Source: Nitrospirales bacterium (GTDB taxonomy: Bacteria > Nitrospirota > Nitrospiria > Nitrospirales > UBA8639). Taken from it: a stretch of 64,000 nucleotides of DNA. How positions within the stretch are numbered: position 1 is the first letter of the stretch; the number at the start of each line of letters is the position of its first letter. The DNA lies in the NCBI GenBank assembly GCA_031315865.1, contig JALDRJ010000002.1, positions 1,214,001 through 1,278,000 of the forward strand. Reading direction: 5' to 3'. The notes below the pieces were generated by a model. The model did not search any database, was not told the DNA's origin, and saw only the letters and a program-made list of their open reading frames with translations. This document shows positions 25,885 to 36,966 of this stretch, piece after piece. A program made the position numbers and the translations under genes.

Positions 25885-25951
25885 TTCCTATTTACGGCTT
25901 CTTAATTCTGTCTGATTCCGAATAATCCCCGAGTTGAGGGGAGCGATACAT

Positions 25952-27910
25952 ATGAGAGCTCAGCCCCAAACCATCCAATTGACATTTCCTGACGGGACTT
26001 CATTTCCGGCGTCAAAAGGTATTACCGGTGCTGAAGCCATTCGACAGCATCAGGGGGGGAGTATTCCTGAAGGCACATTCGCAGTGAAGGTCAATGGAGT
26101 GCCTCGTGATATGGAAGCGAGTCTTCAACAAGATAGCATGTTGGAACCGTTGGATTTTTCTTCAGAAGAAGGAAAGGAAATCTATAGGCATAGCAGCACG
26201 CACATCATGGCTCAAGCGGTGAAGGAGTGCTTTCCTACCGCGCAAATGACGATTGGGCCAGCCATCGAAGAAGGGTTTTTCTACGATTTTGCCTTTGAAC
26301 GGCCGTTCACCCCTGAAGATTTGGAGAAGATCGAAGAACAGGCGAGAGAAATCATTCAGCGTGATTTGATGGTGACTCGTCAAGAATTTACCAAGCAAGA
26401 AGCGGTGGAGTTCTTTCAATCGCGGGGTGAGGATTACAAAGTTGAGTTGATTCAAGGATTTCCGGATGGAGAATCGATTTCCGCTTACGCCCAAGGGGAA
26501 TTTGTGGATTTATGCCGTGGCCCGCATATTCCATCTACCGGTCACATCAAAGCTTTCAAATTACTGACGAGTGCCGGAGCCTATTGGCGTGGCGATGAAC
26601 GTAACCCGATGCTCCAACGAATCTACGGAACTTCGTTTCCTTCTCAGGATGCGCTTGATGCACATCTGGCCAACCTGGAAGAAATTAAAAAACGTGATCA
26701 TCGCAAATTAGGAAAAGAGCTTGATTTATTTAGCATTCAAGATGAAACCGGGCCCGGACTGATTCTTTGGCACCCCAAGGGAGCCTTGGTGCGCTTACTC
26801 ATCGAAAATTTTTGGCGAGATCAACACATTAAAAACGGGTATGAACTCGTCTATTCGCCGCATGTTGCCCGTCTTGATTTATGGAAAACCAGCGGTCACG
26901 TCGACTACTACCGCGAGAACATGTACGCCCCGATGACCGTGGAATCGAGTGAATACCAGTTGAAGCCCATGAATTGTCCCTTTCACATCATGGTCTATAA
27001 ATCGCACCTCCGGAGCTATCGAGATTTACCGTTACGGTATGGAGAACTCGGAACGGTCTATCGCTATGAACGATCGGGGGTTCTTCACGGACTCATGCGG
27101 GTCCGAGGATTTACGCAAGATGATGCGCATCTCTTTTGCCGTCCTGATCAATTGGCCCAAGAAGTCAGCAAGGTCTTGGACTTTACGATCTTTGTCCTTC
27201 AGACATTTGGGTTTACCGAGTTTGAGATGTACCTTTCCACGCGTCCCGAAAAGGCCGTGGGCTCGATGGAGCAATGGGAACAAGCCACTCAGGCTCTAGA
27301 GGAGGCCTTGCAGAAAGGGAAGTTTGAGTACAAAGTTGATCCGGGAGAAGGGGTCTTTTATGGCCCGAAGATTGATGTGAAGATCAAAGACGCCTTGGGT
27401 CGCTCATGGCAATGCTCCACCGTTCAGGTCGATTTTAATAATCCTATACGGTTTGAACTCTCCTATAGGGGGGAAGATGGTCAGTCACATCAGCCGATCA
27501 TGATTCATCGAGCTCTGATGGGATCAATCGAACGATTCTTTGGAATTCTGTTGGAACATTATGGAGGAGCTTTTCCGACATGGTTGGCTCCAGTGCAGGC
27601 AGCTGTCCTGCCGATTTCCGATAAGCAGCGAGAATATGCGGTTTCCGTCGTCGAGAAATTGCGTCAAACAGGCTGCCGAGCAGAATCGGACTTGCGGAAT
27701 GAGAAAATTGGCCTTAAAATCCGTGAAGCTGAAAAAGCAAAAGTTCCCTATATGCTCGTCGTCGGTGACCGTGAGTCTCAAGATGGAACGGTTTCTGTCA
27801 GAAAGCGTAATGGCAAGAATGTAGGTGCCATGTCCGTAGAGGAGGTTCTTACGATTATTCGAAATGAAATTCCGTCTGTACTGTCCTGTGATTCGTCGCG
27901 TTCAGTATGA
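25952..27910 (+). CDS. thrS: Threonyl-tRNA synthetase
   Basis: A 652-residue class II synthetase. The start at 25952 is preceded by GAGGGGAG; a TTG at 25934 extends the frame but is unlikely. Domains in order are an N-terminal TGS domain (residues 1-60), an editing domain (about 60-240, with RHSSTHIMAQAVKECFP), a catalytic core (LKPMNCPFHIMVYKS with the zinc-binding Cys; YRYERSGVLHGLMRVRGF), and an anticodon-binding domain (last 100 residues). It charges tRNA-Thr. It is the first gene of thrS-infC-rpmI-rplT and overlaps infC by 4 bases. Confidence 0.96.
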   Translation: MRAQPQTIQLTFPDGTSFPASKGITGAEAIRQHQGGSIPEGTFAVKVNGVPRDMEASLQQDSMLEPLDFSSEEGKEIYRHSSTHIMAQAVKECFPTAQMTIGPAIEEGFFYDFAFERPFTPEDLEKIEEQAREIIQRDLMVTRQEFTKQEAVEFFQSRGEDYKVELIQGFPDGESISAYAQGEFVDLCRGPHIPSTGHIKAFKLLTSAGAYWRGDERNPMLQRIYGTSFPSQDALDAHLANLEEIKKRDHRKLGKELDLFSIQDETGPGLILWHPKGALVRLLIENFWRDQHIKNGYELVYSPHVARLDLWKTSGHVDYYRENMYAPMTVESSEYQLKPMNCPFHIMVYKSHLRSYRDLPLRYGELGTVYRYERSGVLHGLMRVRGFTQDDAHLFCRPDQLAQEVSKVLDFTIFVLQTFGFTEFEMYLSTRPEKAVGSMEQWEQATQALEEALQKGKFEYKVDPGEGVFYGPKIDVKIKDALGRSWQCSTVQVDFNNPIRFELSYRGEDGQSHQPIMIHRALMGSIERFFGILLEHYGGAFPTWLAPVQAAVLPISDKQREYAVSVVEKLRQTGCRAESDLRNEKIGLKIREAEKAKVPYMLVVGDRESQDGTVSVRKRNGKNVGAMSVEEVLTIIRNEIPSVLSCDSSRSV

Positions 27911-28425
27911 GTCGACCCCCAGTCGTCAAACAGCGTATTAATCACCTGATCCGCGTCCCGGAAGTTCGCGTTATCGGAGCTGAAGGGGAACAGCTTGGGG
28001 TGATGAAAACGCCTGATGCTGTTCGGCAGGCGAAGGAGGCGGGCTATGACTTGGTCGAGGTAGCCCCTACCGCTGATCCTCCGGTTTGCCGGATCATGGA
28101 TTTTGGAAAATTCAAGTACGAACAAAGTAAAAAGCAACATCGGACTCGACAACATCAAAAATCCACACAGGTCAAAGAAATCAAGTTACGTCCGAGAACA
28201 GATAAACATGACCTAGAAACCAAAGTCCGTCAGATTCGAGGGTTTTTAGAGGAAGGTAATAAAACAAAAGTTACGGTCATGTTTCGTGGGCGTGAAATGG
28301 CCAATAAAGAACTTGGATTTACCGCAATTCAAAAAGTGATTGAAGAGTTGAATGAGGTCGGAGTGATCGAAAGTGCCCCTCGTCTTGAAGGGCGGAACCT
28401 ATTTATGATTGTGTCACCTAAGTAA
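27907..28425 (+). CDS. infC: Translation initiation factor IF-3
   Basis: A 172-residue IF-3 with the N-terminal RVIGAEGEQLGVMKTPDAVR segment, a lysine-rich linker (KYEQSKKQHRTRQHQ), and a C-terminal domain containing VTVMFRGREMANKELGF. It prevents premature 30S-50S joining and monitors start-codon choice. The start is a normal ATG inside an ATGA overlap with the thrS stop, unlike the rare AUU-type start used by many infC genes, so expression is probably coupled to thrS. The next gene, rpmI, is 47 bases away. Confidence 0.95.
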   Translation: MSRPPVVKQRINHLIRVPEVRVIGAEGEQLGVMKTPDAVRQAKEAGYDLVEVAPTADPPVCRIMDFGKFKYEQSKKQHRTRQHQKSTQVKEIKLRPRTDKHDLETKVRQIRGFLEEGNKTKVTVMFRGREMANKELGFTAIQKVIEELNEVGVIESAPRLEGRNLFMIVSPK

Positions 28426-28472: not shown

Positions 28473-28676
28473 ATGGCCCGGCAAAAACTAAAAAATCATT
28501 CAGGGGCGAGCAAGCGATTTAAGCGAACCGGTAGCGGAAAGTGGATGCGTCGTCGAGCCAAGATGCGTCATATCTTGACGACAAAACTTCCACGCCAAAA
28601 ACGTCGTCTCACAGGGGCGGCACAAGTGCGGGATGTCGATTCGACTGCCCTCAATCGCCTACTCCCCTATTGTTAG
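28473..28676 (+). CDS. rpmI: 50S ribosomal protein L35
   Basis: A 67-residue, strongly basic protein; the start at 28473 follows GGAGG by 6 nt. The sequence (KLKNHSGASKRFKRTGSGKW, RRAKMRHILTTKL) is the L35 signature: it binds 23S rRNA in the large subunit. It lies between infC and rplT, 41 bases before rplT, in the usual order. Confidence 0.95.
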   Translation: MARQKLKNHSGASKRFKRTGSGKWMRRRAKMRHILTTKLPRQKRRLTGAAQVRDVDSTALNRLLPYC

Positions 28677-28717
28677 TCTCCAAAAATTATTGAAAATATG
28701 AGGAAGGAGTATCGCTC

Positions 28718-29086
28718 ATGCCACGCGTAAAAGGTGGTCCGCAGACACGACGAAGAAGGAAAAAACGACTCAAGCTAGCGAAAGGACAGTATGGTGGCAA
28801 GAGCCGTCTCTTCCGCACCGCGACCGAGTCAGTGGACAAGGGTGGAGTCTATGCGTACATCGGGCGAAAGCAACGAAAAAGAAATTTCCGCCGACTGTGG
28901 ATCGCGCGAATCAATGCGGCGACCCGTGCGCACGAATTGACCTATAGTCAATTTATGAATGCGCTCAAAAAAGCGGAGATTTTCATTAATCGGAAAATGC
29001 TTTCCGAAATGGCGATTCATGATCCTGAAGGATTTGCTCAACTCGTTGGGTCTGTCAAATCCCAAGTCTCTGGAGCTGCCGCGTAA
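28718..29086 (+). CDS. rplT: 50S ribosomal protein L20
   Basis: A 122-residue basic protein with the L20 pattern: [40 protein letters not shown] and the C-terminal [14 protein letters not shown]20 is an early assembly protein of the large subunit and, in several bacteria, represses its own operon; no leader structure was identified here. AGGAAGGAG precedes the ATG. The stop is directly followed by the stop of convergent pheT, with no base in between, so transcripts must terminate inside each other's coding regions. Confidence 0.95.
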
Positions 29087-30778
29087 TCACGCCCTCCTGG
29101 AAATCTGAAACTCAAAGGCCGCGATAGGCATGTGAATCTGCCAGGCTTCAAGCACTTCGGGATGAAGTTCTCCGATAAAGCCAACTGCGTTTTCTTCGCA
29201 GAGAATCCTACCGACTCGTCCATCCAAGAATGAGCCGTGGTTGCTCGGTTCAAGACGATAATCTCGAACGAGATAGTACATTAAAAGATCGAGATAGGAA
29301 TGAATGTCTGAAAAACTCGCGCCCGGTTGCGCGATGATCGCTGCGATCTTCGAGACGGTTCGAGCCCCTAAGTCCACCCCCATATCTGGCACGGCGACCT
29401 CCCCGATTTCAAACAGTTGATGCGGGTAAAACGATCGCGGTGAGGCTGCTTCCACGCGAAGCAAAAAGGGAAGAATCGATGAACGAAGACAGGCGTAACT
29501 TTCTGTCATGGCGTTCTCGATCTCAACCACATGGCCATGCTCCGTTCCTCCGATGCGCATGCGTTCGATGAGGTCGGTCTTCGAGGCAAGAATATTCGAG
29601 AATATTTCTTGAAAGCCGAATCCGATCATCAAGTCGCGAATTTGATCGGAAAATTTTTCAGAAATTGACAGTGCGCCAACCGTAAATTGTGCGGGCATGA
29701 TCGGCGAAAACGATTCATAGCCCCGGCTGATGGCGACGTCTTCTGCCACATCCATGACATGCATCAGATCATTCCGGTAGGCAGGGAGCTTGACGGAGAG
29801 CGTATGCCGAGTGGCTTTCACACGATAGCCATAGGCATGGAGGGCCTGTTCGATAAGCTCGGAGCCGAGCGGTGTCCCAAGCGCATGTTCTATGGCATTG
29901 AGGGAAATTCGCTGGGAGGTGGACATGTCGATCGGGGTTTTCACCGTTTTTCCGAACTCCGTAGAATAGGGATAGGTCACGTCGATCGAATGAATGTCTG
30001 CTCCACGGTCCGCAAGGTTAACGGAAAAAATATTCAAGGTCAGTAGGACCATAGGCAGGTCCGTGCCTGTGACTTCGACCAAGAGTTCGGTATCGCCGAT
30101 TTGAACCTCCCCAACCTCCCGGCTGTTGATTATCGGTGGAAAGGAAAGAACCTGTCCTTCTTTATCCCAAAGCAGCGGAACCTCTGTCGCCTCGGAAAAG
30201 TCTGCGCCATACTCTAATCCCTTGGGATGAACAGTCAAAATTTCTTGAGGAGTCATCTTTTCGGTAAATCCGAGTGGCGTAAAGCGGGTTTTATCGGATT
30301 TCACGAGCCCATACGTAATGGGGAAAGAGATCGGCCCTAAACGATAAACCCCGATGGATACCGTCTGGCGTTTTCTCCCAAAGATGTCCGCTAATTTTTC
30401 CTGGGTTTGAATCAGTTGCGCTAGCCCCTCTTCCGTCACTTCATACCCTGTCGCGGTACATGCAGCGATATAGGGTCGAATTTTTTCAATACCAGGCAGT
30501 ACCATTAATCGACGTTTCGAACGTCCTTTACTCGACAAGAACGGGTAATCGACAGGTTTGGCGTCGAGAACGATGCGGATTTGTCGAGCAATGCCTTCGA
30601 CACACCATAAGTCCGGCCGGTTGCTGTCTTGAAGCTCAACACGGAGTTCGCCAGTGGAAGGGTTGTGATCTTTGAGCTCACCCTTGACGTACGGAAGCCA
30701 GGATTCAATCTGATTCACGTTCGTCTTGCGGTGAAGCAGGCGTTCAAGGTCTTTGTGAAAAATGGAAATGGTTGGCAT
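29087..30778 (-). CDS. pheT: Phenylalanyl-tRNA synthetase beta subunit, archaeal/eukaryotic type
   Basis: A 563-residue beta subunit. Bacterial PheT is usually about 800 residues with a tRNA-binding EMAP-like N-terminus and a C-terminal FDX-ACB domain; this one lacks both and has the compact archaeal/eukaryotic layout. Recognisable parts are ELQDSNRPDLWCVEGIARQI near residue 48, the B3/B4 editing-like region, the B5 domain (residues about 275-345) and the catalytic-like core. It pairs with PheS, which ends 5 bases upstream, and charges tRNA-Phe. The gene stands where many bacteria carry bacterial-type pheST downstream of rplT, but inverted. Confidence 0.88.
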   Translation of the reverse strand: MPTISIFHKDLERLLHRKTNVNQIESWLPYVKGELKDHNPSTGELRVELQDSNRPDLWCVEGIARQIRIVLDAKPVDYPFLSSKGRSKRRLMVLPGIEKIRPYIAACTATGYEVTEEGLAQLIQTQEKLADIFGRKRQTVSIGVYRLGPISFPITYGLVKSDKTRFTPLGFTEKMTPQEILTVHPKGLEYGADFSEATEVPLLWDKEGQVLSFPPIINSREVGEVQIGDTELLVEVTGTDLPMVLLTLNIFSVNLADRGADIHSIDVTYPYSTEFGKTVKTPIDMSTSQRISLNAIEHALGTPLGSELIEQALHAYGYRVKATRHTLSVKLPAYRNDLMHVMDVAEDVAISRGYESFSPIMPAQFTVGALSISEKFSDQIRDLMIGFGFQEIFSNILASKTDLIERMRIGGTEHGHVVEIENAMTESYACLRSSILPFLLRVEAASPRSFYPHQLFEIGEVAVPDMGVDLGARTVSKIAAIIAQPGASFSDIHSYLDLLMYYLVRDYRLEPSNHGSFLDGRVGRILCEENAVGFIGELHPEVLEAWQIHMPIAAFEFQISRRA

Positions 30779-30783
30779 AGAAA

Positions 30784-32340
30784 TTAAAACTGGCGCCGCA
30801 TGGTGCGGACGGCTTCGAGATCAGATGTAAATAAATCGCGGATATCATGAATGCCCAAGGCGACCATGGCCATCCGATCAAGGCCCAACCCCCACGCGAT
30901 GACCGGAACATTCACTCCGAGCGGAATCGTGACTTCCGGACGGAAAAGTCCCGCCCCCCCAAGTTCCATCCACCCGAGGTGTGGATGGCGAACATGGAGT
31001 TCCACGGATGGCTCGGTAAATGGAAAGTAGGCCGGTAAAAATCGAATCTCTTTGGCTTGAGCCATTTCAGAGGCGAATAAATTCAATAAGCCCAGAAGGG
31101 TCCGGAAATTGATTTCGTGACCGAGCACGATCCCTTCGACTTGAAAAAAGTCAGTCGCATGAGTGGCATCGACCTGGTCATACCGGAAACAGCGGGCGAT
31201 CGAAAAGTACTTCCCTGGTATCTGCGGGGAGCCGGCCAGAGTCCTCGCGGAAACGGCAGTTCCTTGACTTCGTAAAATGAGCCGTCGCGCCCGATCCCGG
31301 TCGTATGGATATTGCCATCCTTTAGAGCCGGTCGATCCACCGTTTTCATGAGCGTCGGCCACTTGAGTTAAGTAGGGCTCGGAAATGGATTTGGCATGGG
31401 TGGGATTCTTCACGAAGTACACATCGTGAATAGCCCGGGCCGGATGAAACTGAGGCATGTAGAGCGCGTCCATATCCCAAAACTCCGTCTCGACCAACTC
31501 GCCTCGCATTTCCTGGAAGCCCATGCTGACGAGTTTATGCTTCACCGAATCGAGAAATTCTCTATACGGGTGTCGTCGCCCCACGGCTAGCCGCGGAGGG
31601 CGAAGTCCGATGGAATATTTGCGGAAGGTATAATTCCGCCAGGATCCATCTTTGAGCATATCCGGTGTCAGCTGCGAAACTTCCTGCGTCGCATGCGCTG
31701 AGGTGAGTTGACTGAGAGCCTGACCTTCAGGGGTCAACGCATAGGTGCGAAGGATATTATCTTCAAGGCGAAAGGGCTCATGCGCACTCCCACGTTTAAT
31801 CGCATATTGACGAATAATAGCCTGATCCGCCTCGGGCAATGTTCCTAGCGCTTGAGACCCTTGGGATAATCGTTGAAGCAGGGCTCGCAAGCTGTTTGCC
31901 GTCGAACTGGGTGTCCCAGTGGTTTCAAGAACGCCTCCGGCAACAAGCCGAATGGCCTGGTCTTTTTTCAACAGCCCGATCGCGCGACTTAATTCAGTCG
32001 GTTGAAACGATCCCTGAGCCTGAAGGTCTTTCACGGTGATTGGCTTCTGAAGGGTCTCGGATTCTTGAATGGATTGCAGAATCCATTCCGGGGGAGAATT
32101 TGAGCGATGATACGATTCACCCGTCTCACTTAACGACACCATGGGTGTGATAGTTTCTGTCTCTAGCGTGAGAAGCTTTTTCGTTAAGAGCCACCCAACT
32201 GCCATGCTTACCTGGGAAAGCTCCAGGGCCGTAGCGGAGGCCAGCTCGCCATCAGATAAAGCCCCGCTCGCATTTTTGAGAACGGTGAGCACCTTGATTT
32301 CGAGCGGATGAAGACTATCGAGAAGAATGTCGGTATTCAT
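30784..32340 (-). CDS. pheS: Phenylalanyl-tRNA synthetase alpha subunit, archaeal/eukaryotic type
   Basis: A 518-residue alpha subunit. Bacterial PheS is about 340 residues with an N-terminal coiled coil; this one instead begins with winged-helix-type domains (residues 1-190, LHPLEIKVLTVLKNASGALS) typical of archaeal and eukaryotic enzymes. The catalytic core includes HPYREFLDSVKHKLVSMGF, DALYMPQFHPARAIHDVYFV and GAGLFRPEVTIPLGVNVPVI. The gene follows rpe by 8 bases and precedes pheT by 5, so expression is clearly joint. Confidence 0.9.
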   Translation of the reverse strand: MNTDILLDSLHPLEIKVLTVLKNASGALSDGELASATALELSQVSMAVGWLLTKKLLTLETETITPMVSLSETGESYHRSNSPPEWILQSIQESETLQKPITVKDLQAQGSFQPTELSRAIGLLKKDQAIRLVAGGVLETTGTPSSTANSLRALLQRLSQGSQALGTLPEADQAIIRQYAIKRGSAHEPFRLEDNILRTYALTPEGQALSQLTSAHATQEVSQLTPDMLKDGSWRNYTFRKYSIGLRPPRLAVGRRHPYREFLDSVKHKLVSMGFQEMRGELVETEFWDMDALYMPQFHPARAIHDVYFVKNPTHAKSISEPYLTQVADAHENGGSTGSKGWQYPYDRDRARRLILRSQGTAVSARTLAGSPQIPGKYFSIARCFRYDQVDATHATDFFQVEGIVLGHEINFRTLLGLLNLFASEMAQAKEIRFLPAYFPFTEPSVELHVRHPHLGWMELGGAGLFRPEVTIPLGVNVPVIAWGLGLDRMAMVALGIHDIRDLFTSDLEAVRTMRRQF

Positions 32341-32348
32341 GTAAATCG

Positions 32349-33026
32349 TTAGACGTTGACGATGTGTCCGGCTTGACGCATGTGTTGGATCGTCCTGCTC
32401 TGATCTTCGCTTCCAAAGATGGCCGATCCAGAAACCAGGACATCGGCTCCCGCGTGAATGATTGAACCGGCGTTCTTGAGGTTCACCCCACCATCAACCT
32501 CCAGAAAGGCGTGACTGCGGGCGGCAGTAAGCATCTGACGCACTCGAGAGATTTTGTGAAGGGAGGAGTCGATAAACTGCTGTCCTCCAAACCCGGGATT
32601 CACCGACATGACGAGAACAAGGTCGATTTCACCGATAATCTCCTCAAGCGTCGTCACGGATGTTGCGGGATTCAACGTGACTCCCGCTTTGACTTTATGC
32701 TCCTTGATCAACTGGACCGTGCGGTGTAAGTGAGGGCAGGTTTCCACATGAACGGTGAGATGATCGGCTCCGGCATCGGCAAATTCTCCGATGAACGCAT
32801 CTGGGTTCGTCATCATCAAGTGGACATCAAGCGGAAGTTTGGTGACTTTGCGGAGCGCTTCGACGATGGGCGGTCCGGCCGTCAGGTTGGGCACGAAATG
32901 CCCGTCCATCACATCAATATGAATCCAATCAGCCCCTGCCGTCTCGACTTGATGCACTGCTTCTGCCAGTCGACCAAAATCCGCTGACAGTATGGAAGGG
33001 GCGATCAGTGGCGTGGAGGTACTCAT
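32349..33026 (-). CDS. rpe: Ribulose-phosphate 3-epimerase
   Basis: A 225-residue TIM-barrel enzyme with IAPSILSADFGRLAEAV, HIDVMDGHFVPNLTAGP, VLVMSVNPGFGGQQFI and LEVDGGVNLKN, the full set of Rpe motifs with metal-binding His and catalytic Asp residues. It interconverts ribulose 5-phosphate and xylulose 5-phosphate in the pentose phosphate or Calvin cycle. The ATG overlaps the rsmB stop by 4 bases (33023-33026), and pheS begins 8 bases after its stop. Confidence 0.95.
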   Translation of the reverse strand: MSTSTPLIAPSILSADFGRLAEAVHQVETAGADWIHIDVMDGHFVPNLTAGPPIVEALRKVTKLPLDVHLMMTNPDAFIGEFADAGADHLTVHVETCPHLHRTVQLIKEHKVKAGVTLNPATSVTTLEEIIGEIDLVLVMSVNPGFGGQQFIDSSLHKISRVRQMLTAARSHAFLEVDGGVNLKNAGSIIHAGADVLVSGSAIFGSEDQSRTIQHMRQAGHIVNV

Positions 33027-34459
33027 GTCCGATGTCCTTTCACGAAGCGCGCGGCGAAAAATCCATCCATTGAGGCGTCATTAAAAGCGGTGAGCAAACA
33101 CCCTGTTTCATCGATGAGAGATCTTGCCGCCGCCGGTAGCCACGGCTCCACTGTATCTTGAGAAAACTCCTGATGTTCGGCAAGAAAGGACTTGACCACA
33201 TCATGAGTTTCTTCTTTTTCTATCGAGCAGGCACTATAGACCAACACTCCACCGGGTCTCAAGAGTGCGCTGGCCCGGTCAAGGATCTTCTCCTGTGCGG
33301 ATCGGGCCTGCTGAATCAGTTGGGGTCCCTTCCACCACTTGCCTTCCGGATGACGACGAAGGGTGCCCAGCCCCGAGCACGGTGCATCGACCAAGATGCG
33401 GTCAAAGGTTTGGGCGAATGGCGATGCTTGAGATGGGTCTTGCTCGCCTTGGGAGGAGGTTGAAACGCGTCCAGAGGTCTCTTTGGTGATATCGCCACAA
33501 TGAGTAGTAATGTTCGTCAAACCCAGACGCTCCGCATTCTTCCTTACGAGGTGCAAACGCTGTGCGTTTGAGTCGAGCGCCAAAATGTTTCCCTGATTCT
33601 GCATGTGTTGGCTGATGTGCGTGGTCTTCCCGCCAGGGGCTGCGCAGACATCCAAGACATGGTGCTCTGGTTTGGCATCAAGTAATGTGGGAATAAGTTG
33701 TGCGGCTTCATCTTCAATATAGCAATATCCCTCCTGTAATGGGGAAAGATCTTTCAAGTCACCACATTTTTTAATGGTAATGCCAAGTGGACTCAGGAGC
33801 GTCGCGCGGGCTTCATATCCTTGTCGCTGAAGTAGGCGTAACAATTCGCCCCGAGTGCAACATAACGTATTGGTTCGCAGCGTCAAGGGAGGGATGTGGA
33901 GGGTGGATTCACATAACGTTCGTGTGCGGTCGATTCCCCAGGCATGTACCCATCGTTCAACCATCCAAGGAGGGCAGGAGTATCTGATGGAAAATGCCCT
34001 GACGGGGTCCTCGTCAATATGAGGCCATGCAGGTGCCGATTGTCTCATCAGGTTTCGAAGAACGGCATTCATCATGCCGCTCCAGTCCCGTCCTTTGACG
34101 GTCTTCGCCAGTTTGACCGATTCATTGACCGCCGCAGATGGAGGGATCCGGTCAAGATGCAAGAGCTGATACGCTCCTAATCGAAATATCATGGCAAGGG
34201 TGAGTGGCAATCGTTCAACGGGACGATCGGCCACATGATTAAGCCGCCAATCCAACGTCTCCCGGTGCCGCAACACCCCATACACCAGTTCGGTGATCAA
34301 AGGACGGTCCAAGTTAGATACATTTGACGTCTCTAACATGGAGTCGATGACCGAGTCTGCGAATGGTTCTTGTCGATGTATTTGTAAGAGAATCGTCAGG
34401 GCAGCTGAGCGAGCCCCGACGTATCGTATTTTCGGAAAGCGCTTTTTTGATGAGGCCAT
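33023..34459 (-). CDS. rsmB: 16S rRNA (cytosine-967-C5)-methyltransferase RsmB
   Basis: A 478-residue protein with an N-terminal NusB-like RNA-binding domain (residues 15-145; DRPLITELVYGVLRHRETLD) and a C-terminal SAM-dependent methyltransferase. Motifs seen are VLDVCAAPGGKTTHIS, the catalytic DAPCSGLGTLRRHPEGKW and YSACSIEKEE. It methylates C967 of 16S rRNA near the P site. A low-complexity insertion (about 318-335, SSQGEQDPSQASP) lies between motifs. It lies in the larC-pdxA-rsmB-rpe-pheS-pheT run and is translationally coupled to rpe. Confidence 0.93.
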   Translation of the reverse strand: MASSKKRFPKIRYVGARSAALTILLQIHRQEPFADSVIDSMLETSNVSNLDRPLITELVYGVLRHRETLDWRLNHVADRPVERLPLTLAMIFRLGAYQLLHLDRIPPSAAVNESVKLAKTVKGRDWSGMMNAVLRNLMRQSAPAWPHIDEDPVRAFSIRYSCPPWMVERWVHAWGIDRTRTLCESTLHIPPLTLRTNTLCCTRGELLRLLQRQGYEARATLLSPLGITIKKCGDLKDLSPLQEGYCYIEDEAAQLIPTLLDAKPEHHVLDVCAAPGGKTTHISQHMQNQGNILALDSNAQRLHLVRKNAERLGLTNITTHCGDITKETSGRVSTSSQGEQDPSQASPFAQTFDRILVDAPCSGLGTLRRHPEGKWWKGPQLIQQARSAQEKILDRASALLRPGGVLVYSACSIEKEETHDVVKSFLAEHQEFSQDTVEPWLPAAARSLIDETGCLLTAFNDASMDGFFAARFVKGHRT

Positions 34460-34535: not shown

Positions 34536-35567
34536 TCAACGAGGTTGAGTGGCCAGTTGAGCAGCTAAGGTGATGGCCTCGATTAAACTCGTCGGGTCCG
34601 CCTTGCCTTTGCCGGCGATGTCATAAGCCGTCCCATGGTCAACCGATGTCCGAATGAATGGGAGGCCAACAGTCACGTTCACGCAATGCCCGAACGCCAG
34701 GGTTTTCAGCGCGACAAGTCCCTGATCATGGTACATGGCGACGACGCCATCGAATTCACCCTGAGCGGCTTTGCCAAAAAGCGTATCGGCTGGGTATGGC
34801 CCAAAACACCGGATGCCTGACGCTTTGCCCTGCTCGACGGCAGGGGCGATGGCTCGTCGCTCTTCCTCTCCAAACAACCCCTCTTCTCCCGCATGCGGAT
34901 TCAATCCTGCGACGCCGATCCTCGGTCGTTTGATCCCAAACAGGCTGCGCAAGCCCTTATCTGCAAGGCGAAGAGCTCGGAGTACGTTACGTTTGGTGAT
35001 GTGTTGAGGGAGCTGACGAATAGCGATATGCGTGGTCACAAACATGATTCGAAGGGGACCTCCAAAAATCATCATCCCAAATTCTTTAGTGCATGTCAGC
35101 TTCCCCAACATTTCGGTGTGGCCCGGGTATAAATAGCCCGCGAGGTGAATGGCCTTTTTATTGATGGGGGCTGTGACGATGCCGTGAACGCATCCGATCT
35201 TGGCTAAATGAACAGCTTTCTGTATGCAGCGGACGGATGCTTCTCCAGCAATAGCAGTGGCGCGACCTTTGGCGAAACGCCCTAAGGGCCTTTCAAGCGG
35301 GTCGAGCACAGGGAGAAGGCTTCGACGGAAGGCATTCGTCGAGCTGTCATGAGCGTGACCGTTCACGGAGGAAACCGTTAAGGGAATCTCGTATTTCGAA
35401 ACTGCCTGTTCCATGATGAGGCGGGACCCGATCACCAAAGGACGGCATTGCCTGCGGATTACCGGTGAGGCGAGAGCTTTCACGATAATCTCGGGGCCGA
35501 TACCGGCTGGGTCTCCCATAGTGATAGCTAAAATTGGGAGACGAGAAAAGGGTGTTCGCTTCGACAT
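34536..35567 (-). CDS. pdxA: 4-hydroxythreonine-4-phosphate dehydrogenase PdxA
   Basis: A 343-residue enzyme with ITMGDPAGIGPEIIVKAL near the start, the metal-ligand segment PGHTEMLGKL, GLNPHAGEEGLFGEEE and HDQGLVALKTLAFG. It oxidises 4-phospho-hydroxythreonine in the DXP-dependent route to pyridoxal phosphate. It follows larC by 51 bases and precedes rsmB by 76, so it may share a transcript with both. Confidence 0.93.
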   Translation of the reverse strand: MSKRTPFSRLPILAITMGDPAGIGPEIIVKALASPVIRRQCRPLVIGSRLIMEQAVSKYEIPLTVSSVNGHAHDSSTNAFRRSLLPVLDPLERPLGRFAKGRATAIAGEASVRCIQKAVHLAKIGCVHGIVTAPINKKAIHLAGYLYPGHTEMLGKLTCTKEFGMMIFGGPLRIMFVTTHIAIRQLPQHITKRNVLRALRLADKGLRSLFGIKRPRIGVAGLNPHAGEEGLFGEEERRAIAPAVEQGKASGIRCFGPYPADTLFGKAAQGEFDGVVAMYHDQGLVALKTLAFGHCVNVTVGLPFIRTSVDHGTAYDIAGKGKADPTSLIEAITLAAQLATQPR

Positions 35568-35618: not shown

Positions 35619-36833
35619 TCAACGAGAAGTTTTTGCCGCTTTGCGGGCGGTCCCTCGCGTCGTCTGTCTGTAGGCTTCTAGGGCTGAATCAATCACTTCA
35701 CGAACAGGTTTGCCAGTTTTTTTTGCGAGAGACTGACAATCCCGATATTCCGGCATGATCTTCTCACGTCCTTCTCCGATATCAGCGATCTTGATTCGGA
35801 CCTTTCCTTCGGGTAGCTGAATTTTTTCCAGTCTGCGATGAAGGACCGTACGATCAACCTCATGAATTCGCACGCCGAGCGTCGTCGTCTCCTGTAACAG
35901 GCATTGAATAACGGCTTCTCGACCTTGATCGGGAACGAGGACAGAAAGAATAATGCCGGGACGACTGCGTTTCATGATGACTGGAGTGAGCGTGACATCC
36001 AGGGCACCTGCCTGGAATAGTCGTTCCATGACCGACTCATACGCCTGGGGATTCAAATCATCAATCGTTGTGTGGATTTCGAGGATTGATTCAGTGTCAT
36101 GGAATCCTTGAGACGATTCTTTTGCCATGAACACTCGAAGGGCATTGGCCCAATTATCGGGATTGGCCGTTCCCGCTCCATACCCAATGTGAGTGGGTGT
36201 TAATGGAGGAAGAGGCCCAAAGTTTTGCGTCAGGACGCTGATGATAGCCATTCCGGTTGGCGTGGTGAGCTCAAGCCTTGGTCCTGCCGCATAAATGGGA
36301 ATCTTCTGAGCAAGTTGCGCGACAGCCGGACCGGGAACCGGTAATTCACCGTGGGCCGTTAGGATGGTCCCTGAACCAACGTTGATGGGAGACGCTGAGG
36401 CAGAAGTGACGCCCAAGTATTCGATTCCTAACAATGTCCCCACGACGTCTACCAGTGAATCCACCACACCGACCTCATGAAAATGAAATTTCGTCTGAGG
36501 AACTCCATGGACAGCGCTTTCGGCTTCCGCCAGCCGTTGAAATACCTTCAATGAATGCGTTTTCACACGAGAAGGCAACAGGCTTTGTTTAATCATTCGC
36601 CGAATCGTCGGGAGAGAAAGAGGCCGCTCGAATCCTTGGCGCACCTTGACCTCGACTTTGGTCGCTTGAATCGTTCCTCGATGCACGGGCTTGGCGTAAA
36701 GATGATAGCCATTCGTCTTTAACAGCTTGAGGCCCTTCTTGAGAGTGGCGAAGGACAGGCCTGCGTCAACCAGCGCCCCAAGGCACATATCTCCGCTGAT
36801 TCCCGAGAAACAGTCAAAATGCAGATGAGACAT
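35619..36833 (-). CDS. larC: Nickel pincer cofactor biosynthesis protein LarC
   Basis: A protein of 404 residues beginning HLHFDCFSGISGDMCLGALV, the LarC signature (DUF111 family). Further matches are FHFHEVGVVDSLVDVVGT and IHTTIDDLNPQAYESVMERL. LarC inserts nickel, using CTP, into the pyridinium-dithiocarboxylate nucleotide made by LarB and LarE. I start at the ATG at 36833; the open frame extends to a TTG at 36854. LarB is encoded about 900 bases away; neither LarE nor LarA is in the window. Confidence 0.9.
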   Translation of the reverse strand: MSHLHFDCFSGISGDMCLGALVDAGLSFATLKKGLKLLKTNGYHLYAKPVHRGTIQATKVEVKVRQGFERPLSLPTIRRMIKQSLLPSRVKTHSLKVFQRLAEAESAVHGVPQTKFHFHEVGVVDSLVDVVGTLLGIEYLGVTSASASPINVGSGTILTAHGELPVPGPAVAQLAQKIPIYAAGPRLELTTPTGMAIISVLTQNFGPLPPLTPTHIGYGAGTANPDNWANALRVFMAKESSQGFHDTESILEIHTTIDDLNPQAYESVMERLFQAGALDVTLTPVIMKRSRPGIILSVLVPDQGREAVIQCLLQETTTLGVRIHEVDRTVLHRRLEKIQLPEGKVRIKIADIGEGREKIMPEYRDCQSLAKKTGKPVREVIDSALEAYRQTTRGTARKAAKTSR

Positions 36834-36966
36834 CGTCTTCTTAATATTGAGCAAAGTTATAGAGGGATCCCATCATAGCAGATACAGTCGAGGTTCATAC
36901 ATGCTTATTCGTTGCGATCGTCTTCCATTTGACTGATGCGAAAGCCTGTGGTATTCGACCAGTAGG

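Follow-up and report, generated by a model that had tools for sequence, protein, structure and literature searches.

An archaeal/eukaryotic-type phenylalanyl-tRNA synthetase beside rplT in the bacterial phylum Nitrospirota

Phenylalanyl-tRNA synthetase (PheRS) of the archaeal/eukaryotic family is an α2β2 enzyme in which PheS carries out catalysis and PheT edits Tyr-tRNA-Phe. Bacteria can carry this type: for the spirochaetes Borrelia, Treponema and Spirochaeta, the available text of PMC3191353 describes an archaeal-type PheRS with alpha subunits of 513-528 amino acids (aa) and beta subunits of 514-573 aa. Here we analyze a pheS-pheT pair (pheST) in a stretch of 64,000 nt (the window) of contig JALDRJ010000002.1, assembly GCA_031315865.1, from a bacterium that is a relative of Nitrospira. 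The initial annotation of the window, made from the sequence alone, assigned both subunits to the archaeal/eukaryotic type, proposed that the pair had replaced the bacterial genes in place by horizontal transfer, and named the spirochaetes as a precedent, which, on the same text, they are.

Type and number of PheRS genes

The window PheST is an archaeal/eukaryotic-type PheRS. Both open reading frames are present as annotated. PheT (563 aa; 29087..30778, minus strand) scored 466.1 bits against TIGR00471 (pheT_arch), passing the cut-off of 282.65, and 108.5 bits against TIGR00472 (pheT_bact), below the cut-off of 402.65. The bacterial model aligned only to PheT residues 290-560 (model positions 409-689 of 798), and the window protein lacks the N-terminal (B2) and C-terminal (anticodon-binding) extra parts of that model, in agreement with its description as a short PheT. 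PheS (518 aa; 30784..32340, minus strand) matched NF003210 over residues 9-515 with 552.7 bits (cut-off 350). It also exceeded the cut-off of TIGR00468 (341.9 versus 237.45 bits), despite being of the other type.

The closest solved relatives of both proteins are eukaryotic cytosolic PheRSs (human alpha chains for PheS), joined for PheT by a Pyrococcus horikoshii fragment. The predicted PheT structure aligned with P. horikoshii PheT (2cxi) at a target template modeling score (TM-score) of 0.94, a root-mean-square deviation of 1.9 and 36% identity. For PheS, the best solved match was the full-length human alpha chain 3l4g_C, over 516 columns; the PheS model is of low confidence in its catalytic half, and the match is therefore weak in TM-score. 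Residues 1-180 of PheS are predicted to form an alpha/beta, winged-helix-like fold, most blocks having a predicted local distance difference test (pLDDT) score of about 84-92, and the winged-helix Pfam family DUF2582 reached 22.6 bits, slightly below its cut-off of 24.2. Together with the human match, this bears out the winged-helix N-terminus proposed for PheS.

Across 29 aligned PheS sequences, the catalytic core is strongly conserved. In PheT, residues L203, S212, E235 and T237 (window numbering), which we take to be editing-site positions, were invariant in 10 of 10 aligned proteins. Judged by these residues, the window enzyme is probably functional and competent to edit Tyr-tRNA-Phe.

The window genome measures 3.78 Mb in 2 contigs and is 98% complete, with the window in a contig of 3.77 Mb. 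The archaeal-type PheST is the only PheRS found in this genome. The single PF01409 match was this PheS, and nothing in the genome exceeded the TIGR00472 cut-off, the best match being the archaeal-type gene itself. A second TIGR00472 match (33.6 bits) covered only the B2 part of the model (positions 41-148) and fell in a different gene (G000:C2:2582618-2582902), presumably the tRNA-binding domain of another protein. These genome-wide TIGR00472 and PF01409 searches, of the kind suggested with the initial annotation, yielded no bacterial-type copy and rule out a hidden bacterial pheST.

Distribution and chromosomal place

We surveyed both PheT types in 395 Nitrospirota genomes, grouped into families with anonymous codes (f1, f39 and so on). 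The TIGR00471 cut-off was passed in 211 of the 395 and the TIGR00472 cut-off in 159, while 25 passed neither, several of these 25 having a PheT that is truncated by, or lost beyond, the end of a contig. Across both match tables, none of the 395 genomes and no family code was strong for both types. Archaeal-type PheT characterizes families f1-f15, f18, f21, f22 and f39, and bacterial-type PheT all other families with a strong match. Every family of the window's class carries the archaeal type. The best 80 of 444 PheS matches in the genome collection (the named relatives) likewise all bore Nitrospirota-type titles, Nitrospira moscoviensis included. The archaeal-type replacement is thus ancient and extends over much of the phylum, an event far wider than one particular to the window genome: it takes in several families outside the class as well as the class in its entirety. 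The presence of the same locus across the class, and a G+C content (GC) that is not odd, rule out a local or recent transfer. The GC of the window pheST (0.51-0.53) equals that of its surroundings and therefore gives no sign of recent entry.

Five genomes that are 88-100% complete (G122, G373, G166, G361 and G317) had PheS but neither PheT type over the cut-off, probably owing to contig breaks. In G026 (f21; L212, L155, L158), PheT was matched in three pieces within one 675-aa open frame, suggesting insertions. Archaeal-type PheT was absent from the viral contigs searched, and phages gave only weak archaeal-type PheT matches over part of the query. Among the plasmid matches listed (40 of 53 records), PheS was of the bacterial type only. 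Complete bacterial pheS-pheT pairs occur on plasmid-filed records, for example from Anoxybacillus (L340) and Sulfurovum (L349); among such records are clear chromosomes, but also plasmid-sized ones.

In the window, pheST lies directly beside rplT (28718..29086, plus strand), in inverted orientation as annotated: the last base of rplT is 29086 and the first base of the pheT stop codon is 29087, which leaves the genes tail-to-tail with 0 bases between them. This place is conserved. Both rplT and pheT were in view in 65 of the 80 named loci and were tail-to-tail in all 65. In a set of 36 archaeal-type loci, 19 were convergent with rplT, 2 were co-directional and 15 had no rplT in the stretch examined. 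Bacterial-type loci (n = 20) were co-directional, as rplT>pheS(>pheT), in 15 cases and had no rplT in view in 5; in these lineages thrS-infC-rplT-pheS-pheT lie mostly on one strand. When rplT was sought in 22 genomes, it proved co-directional with pheST on one contig in G007 (f20) and G025 (f19), and apart from pheST or on a different contig in the sampled f18, f16, f14, f8 and f7 genomes and in G154. No conserved gene was found downstream of pheT among 14 compared loci.

Both co-directional archaeal-type loci belong to f39, in different genera, and read rplT>pheS>pheT on one strand. In a tree of thrS+infC+rplT from 30 genomes, f39 grouped with the bacterial-type lineages (support 99/99), and a single clade of archaeal-type rows was rejected by the approximately unbiased test (p-AU 0.026). 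In f39, therefore, the genes as far as rplT share the history of the host, whereas the two that come after it do not; this indicates a replacement in place, bounded by rplT on one side and pheS on the other. Thus, f39 is one branch in which the exchange is unusually clear: archaeal-type pheST was swapped exactly into the bacterial pheST slot.

The bacterial-type PheTs bear on what f39 held before. Alignment of 12 proteins showed a clean loss of B2 common to f20, f42 and a large bacterial-type group, with B2 kept in f16, f19 and G154. Because f39 falls among the lineages that share this loss, it probably once had the bacterial pair. Bacterial-type PheTs without B2 (an OB-fold, about residues 40-150) were observed in f17, f20, f23, f24, f28, f34 and f42 (L163, L165, L162, L172, L175, L177 and L317), and most other families of the B2-less group begin at the same pheT_bact model position. 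The bacterial PheTs of the phylum are mostly nearest one another (47% for f16-f19 and 48% for f16-f20, versus about 40% to Fusobacterium or Firmicutes), although for f19 (G025) four outgroups score above f42 in bits. The deep order of the bacterial PheT tree is unresolved. In G154 (f29, L167), but not in its family mate G083, a divergent full-length bacterial PheT lies at a distance from rplT, and this looks like a separate replacement.

Upstream of rplT in the window lie thrS (25934..27910), infC (27907..28425) and, from its position between infC and rplT, an assumed rpmI frame with approximate ends (28474..28677, coordinates whose translation contains a stop), all on the plus strand; thrS, infC and rplT read toward pheT, and orthologues of thrS occur in the same order in relatives. 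The minus-strand run consists of larC at its head (35619..36854), pdxA (34536..35567), rsmB (33023..34459), rpe (32349..33026), pheS and pheT, with successive gaps of 51, 76, -4, 8 and 5 bases; rsmB overlaps rpe by 4 bases, and rpe lies 8 bases upstream of pheS. The pair had been annotated as fused into this run, which is apt for a close, operon-like set of genes on one strand; no fused protein is present. In the stretches examined around the 80 named loci, rpe lay on the same strand as pheS in 79, rsmB in 71, pdxA in 25 and larC in 23. The stop codons of rplT and pheT abut at 29084-29089 in the window, and those of 12 of the 65 named loci overlap by 4 bases, leaving no room for a terminator between the convergent operons.

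tRNA-Phe and the history of the exchange

In the available text of PMC9976931, phenylalanine identity involves G20 in yeast and Aeropyrum and U20 in Escherichia coli. Position 20 of tRNA-Phe was U in 17, C in 2 and G in none of 19 archaeal-type Nitrospirota genomes, and U in 10 of 10 bacterial-type genomes. A73 was present in all 29 tRNA-Phe genes; of the 30 genomes searched, only G021 had no tRNA-Phe matching the search pattern. The acceptor stems of f39 tRNA-Phe are those of most of its bacterial-type sisters. Position 20 is thus bacterial-like in archaeal-type genomes: tRNA-Phe has stayed bacterial while the enzyme changed. Because no other PheRS was found, we infer that the archaeal-type enzyme must accept tRNA-Phe with U20 (or C20), unlike the studied archaeal and yeast enzymes with their G20. 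Four f1-f3 genomes (L313, L314, L295, L296) have a rebuilt anticodon stem, CAGCC/GGCTG, absent in the other 25, and two of them have C20; the rebuilt stem may be a later relaxation.

Collectively, these results make it likely that a functional archaeal/eukaryotic-type PheRS fully replaced the bacterial enzyme and serves an unchanged bacterial-style tRNA-Phe, with the following history. Archaeal-type pheST would have entered once, into the stem of the big clade of archaeal-type families (perhaps including f18), at or beside the rplT-pheST site. The bacterial pair would then have been lost, and the archaeal-type pair inverted or captured into the rsmB-rpe operon, followed by long vertical descent. 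A later transfer within the phylum, from an f18-like relative to the f39 ancestor, would have displaced the bacterial pair directly downstream of rplT.

Species and gene trees are consistent with such a history. A quick RpoB tree covered 57 genomes and 7 outgroups; G044 and G198 had no RpoB match, and G034, being partial, was excluded. Its two parts were a purely archaeal-type clade of 26 rows (98) and a group of 31 rows (83), of which 27 are bacterial-type and those of f18 and f39 archaeal-type. A careful RpoB tree of 25 of those genomes and 4 of the outgroups recovered the all-archaeal-type big clade (100/99) and placed f39 with f42 and the large bacterial-type group (99/98). On RpoB, a single clade of all archaeal-type rows was rejected (p-AU 0.0035), the big clade plus f18 was allowed (p-AU 0.385) and f18+f39 was borderline (p-AU 0.049). 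Rejection of one archaeal-type clade implies at least one further transfer within the phylum, or several losses, after the first entry. A PheT+PheS gene tree of 35 Nitrospirota rows and 4 outgroup rows separated f18+f39 (98/93) from all other rows, the big clade (88/89), and f18 and f39 also grouped in both quick single-gene trees (100 and 99). The RpoB frame of f22 (G010: L243, L245; G019: L244) is about 1,720-1,730 aa long and carries several hundred additional residues between positions about 220 and 254-272 of the model.

Several points weigh against this history. The careful RpoB tree leaves the basal order of f16, f18, f19 and f20 unresolved, and the root of the PheT+PheS tree depends on long outgroup branches; the PheS-only tree puts f22 first, at the root, beside long branches. 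The gene tree allows f18, f39, f15 and f21 to form one clade (p-AU 0.161) and f39 to lie outside all others (p-AU 0.156). Of archaea and spirochaetes together, the tree includes a single Pyrococcus PheT fragment, and direction and donor are read from family type alone. Moreover, the pair of the window's lineage is inverted and joined to rpe-rsmB, so that this lineage by itself does not demonstrate a simple gene-for-gene swap. The initial proposal of in-place replacement therefore holds for the transfer and for the position beside rplT, whereas the simple swap itself is seen in f39.

Alternatively, the ancestor of the phylum may have had both pairs, the bacterial one after rplT and the archaeal-type one elsewhere or beside it, with each lineage losing one and no transfer within the phylum. 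The first split of the archaeal-type tree, f18+f39 versus the big clade, matches the quick RpoB split of the phylum, the bacterial PheTs are closer to each other than to those of other phyla in most comparisons, and the permitted placement of f39 outside all others also fits. However, the two pairs would have had to coexist through several splits, yet 0 of 395 genomes was seen with both, and differential loss does not explain the archaeal-type pair of f39 lying exactly in the bacterial slot. We therefore regard this alternative as unlikely, although it is the strongest.

It is more doubtful still that the archaeal-type pair was ancestral and that bacterial-type PheRS returned several times. 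Either way, few label changes are needed on the quick rooted RpoB tree (a minimum of 3), and bacterial pairs lie away from rplT in f16 and G154. Against this, the bacterial pair occupies its usual position after rplT, in at least one genome each, in f17, f19, f20, f23, f24, f28-f30, f32-f35, f37, f38 and f40-f42, making repeated return to that slot unlikely, and the B2 loss is common to f20, f42 and the large bacterial-type group. Archaeal DNA contamination, misassembly or a second silent copy is highly improbable: many genomes of the phylum are metagenome bins, but the 3.77 Mb contig, the matching GC, the same locus in N. moscoviensis (NZ_CP011801.1, L122) and the same neighbours in dozens of named bins refute contamination for the window's lineage.

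Returning to early entry followed by a later transfer into f39, there is about an even chance that PheRS type behaved as a two-state switch within one phylum, with entry of the archaeal type before or near the deepest splits, a re-swap into the bacterial slot in at least one branch, and no change of tRNA-Phe to G20. Near-identical tRNA-Phe would then be served by an archaeal-type enzyme in f39 and by a bacterial-type enzyme in its sisters.

Comparison with known systems

The kind of event is known from spirochaetes; for Nitrospirota it is apparently unreported, as we found no report of an archaeal-type PheRS in the open-licence literature searched on Nitrospira, Nitrospirota and Leptospirillum. 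It indicates that the two genes of an essential synthetase, situated in a ribosomal-protein operon, can be exchanged between domains while the tRNA remains unchanged, and f39 and its sisters offer close natural pairs for studying such an exchange. There is also a practical side. PheS (TIGR00468) and PheT (TIGR00472) are listed among the GTDB bac120 markers in the available text of PMC7214798; with the window PheS passing the first model and PheT failing the second, the two types may become mixed when Nitrospirota genomes are placed in marker trees or checked for completeness.

Like the spirochaete PheRS, as described in the text cited above (PMC3191353), the Nitrospirota enzyme has two archaeal-type subunits of similar sizes and has replaced the bacterial enzyme. 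Unlike that case, it belongs to a different phylum, the place beside rplT is kept, and f39 shows a mosaic in-place swap. With the archaeal and eukaryotic cytosolic PheRSs (human 3l4g, Pyrococcus 2cxi) it shares family models, lengths, domain order and predicted fold, but its host is bacterial and the tRNA-Phe has U20 or C20 instead of G20. Compared with bacterial pheST, which follows thrS-infC-rpmI-rplT, it occupies the same chromosomal place with a different type of protein, in inverted orientation in the window's clade and in the bacterial orientation in f39.

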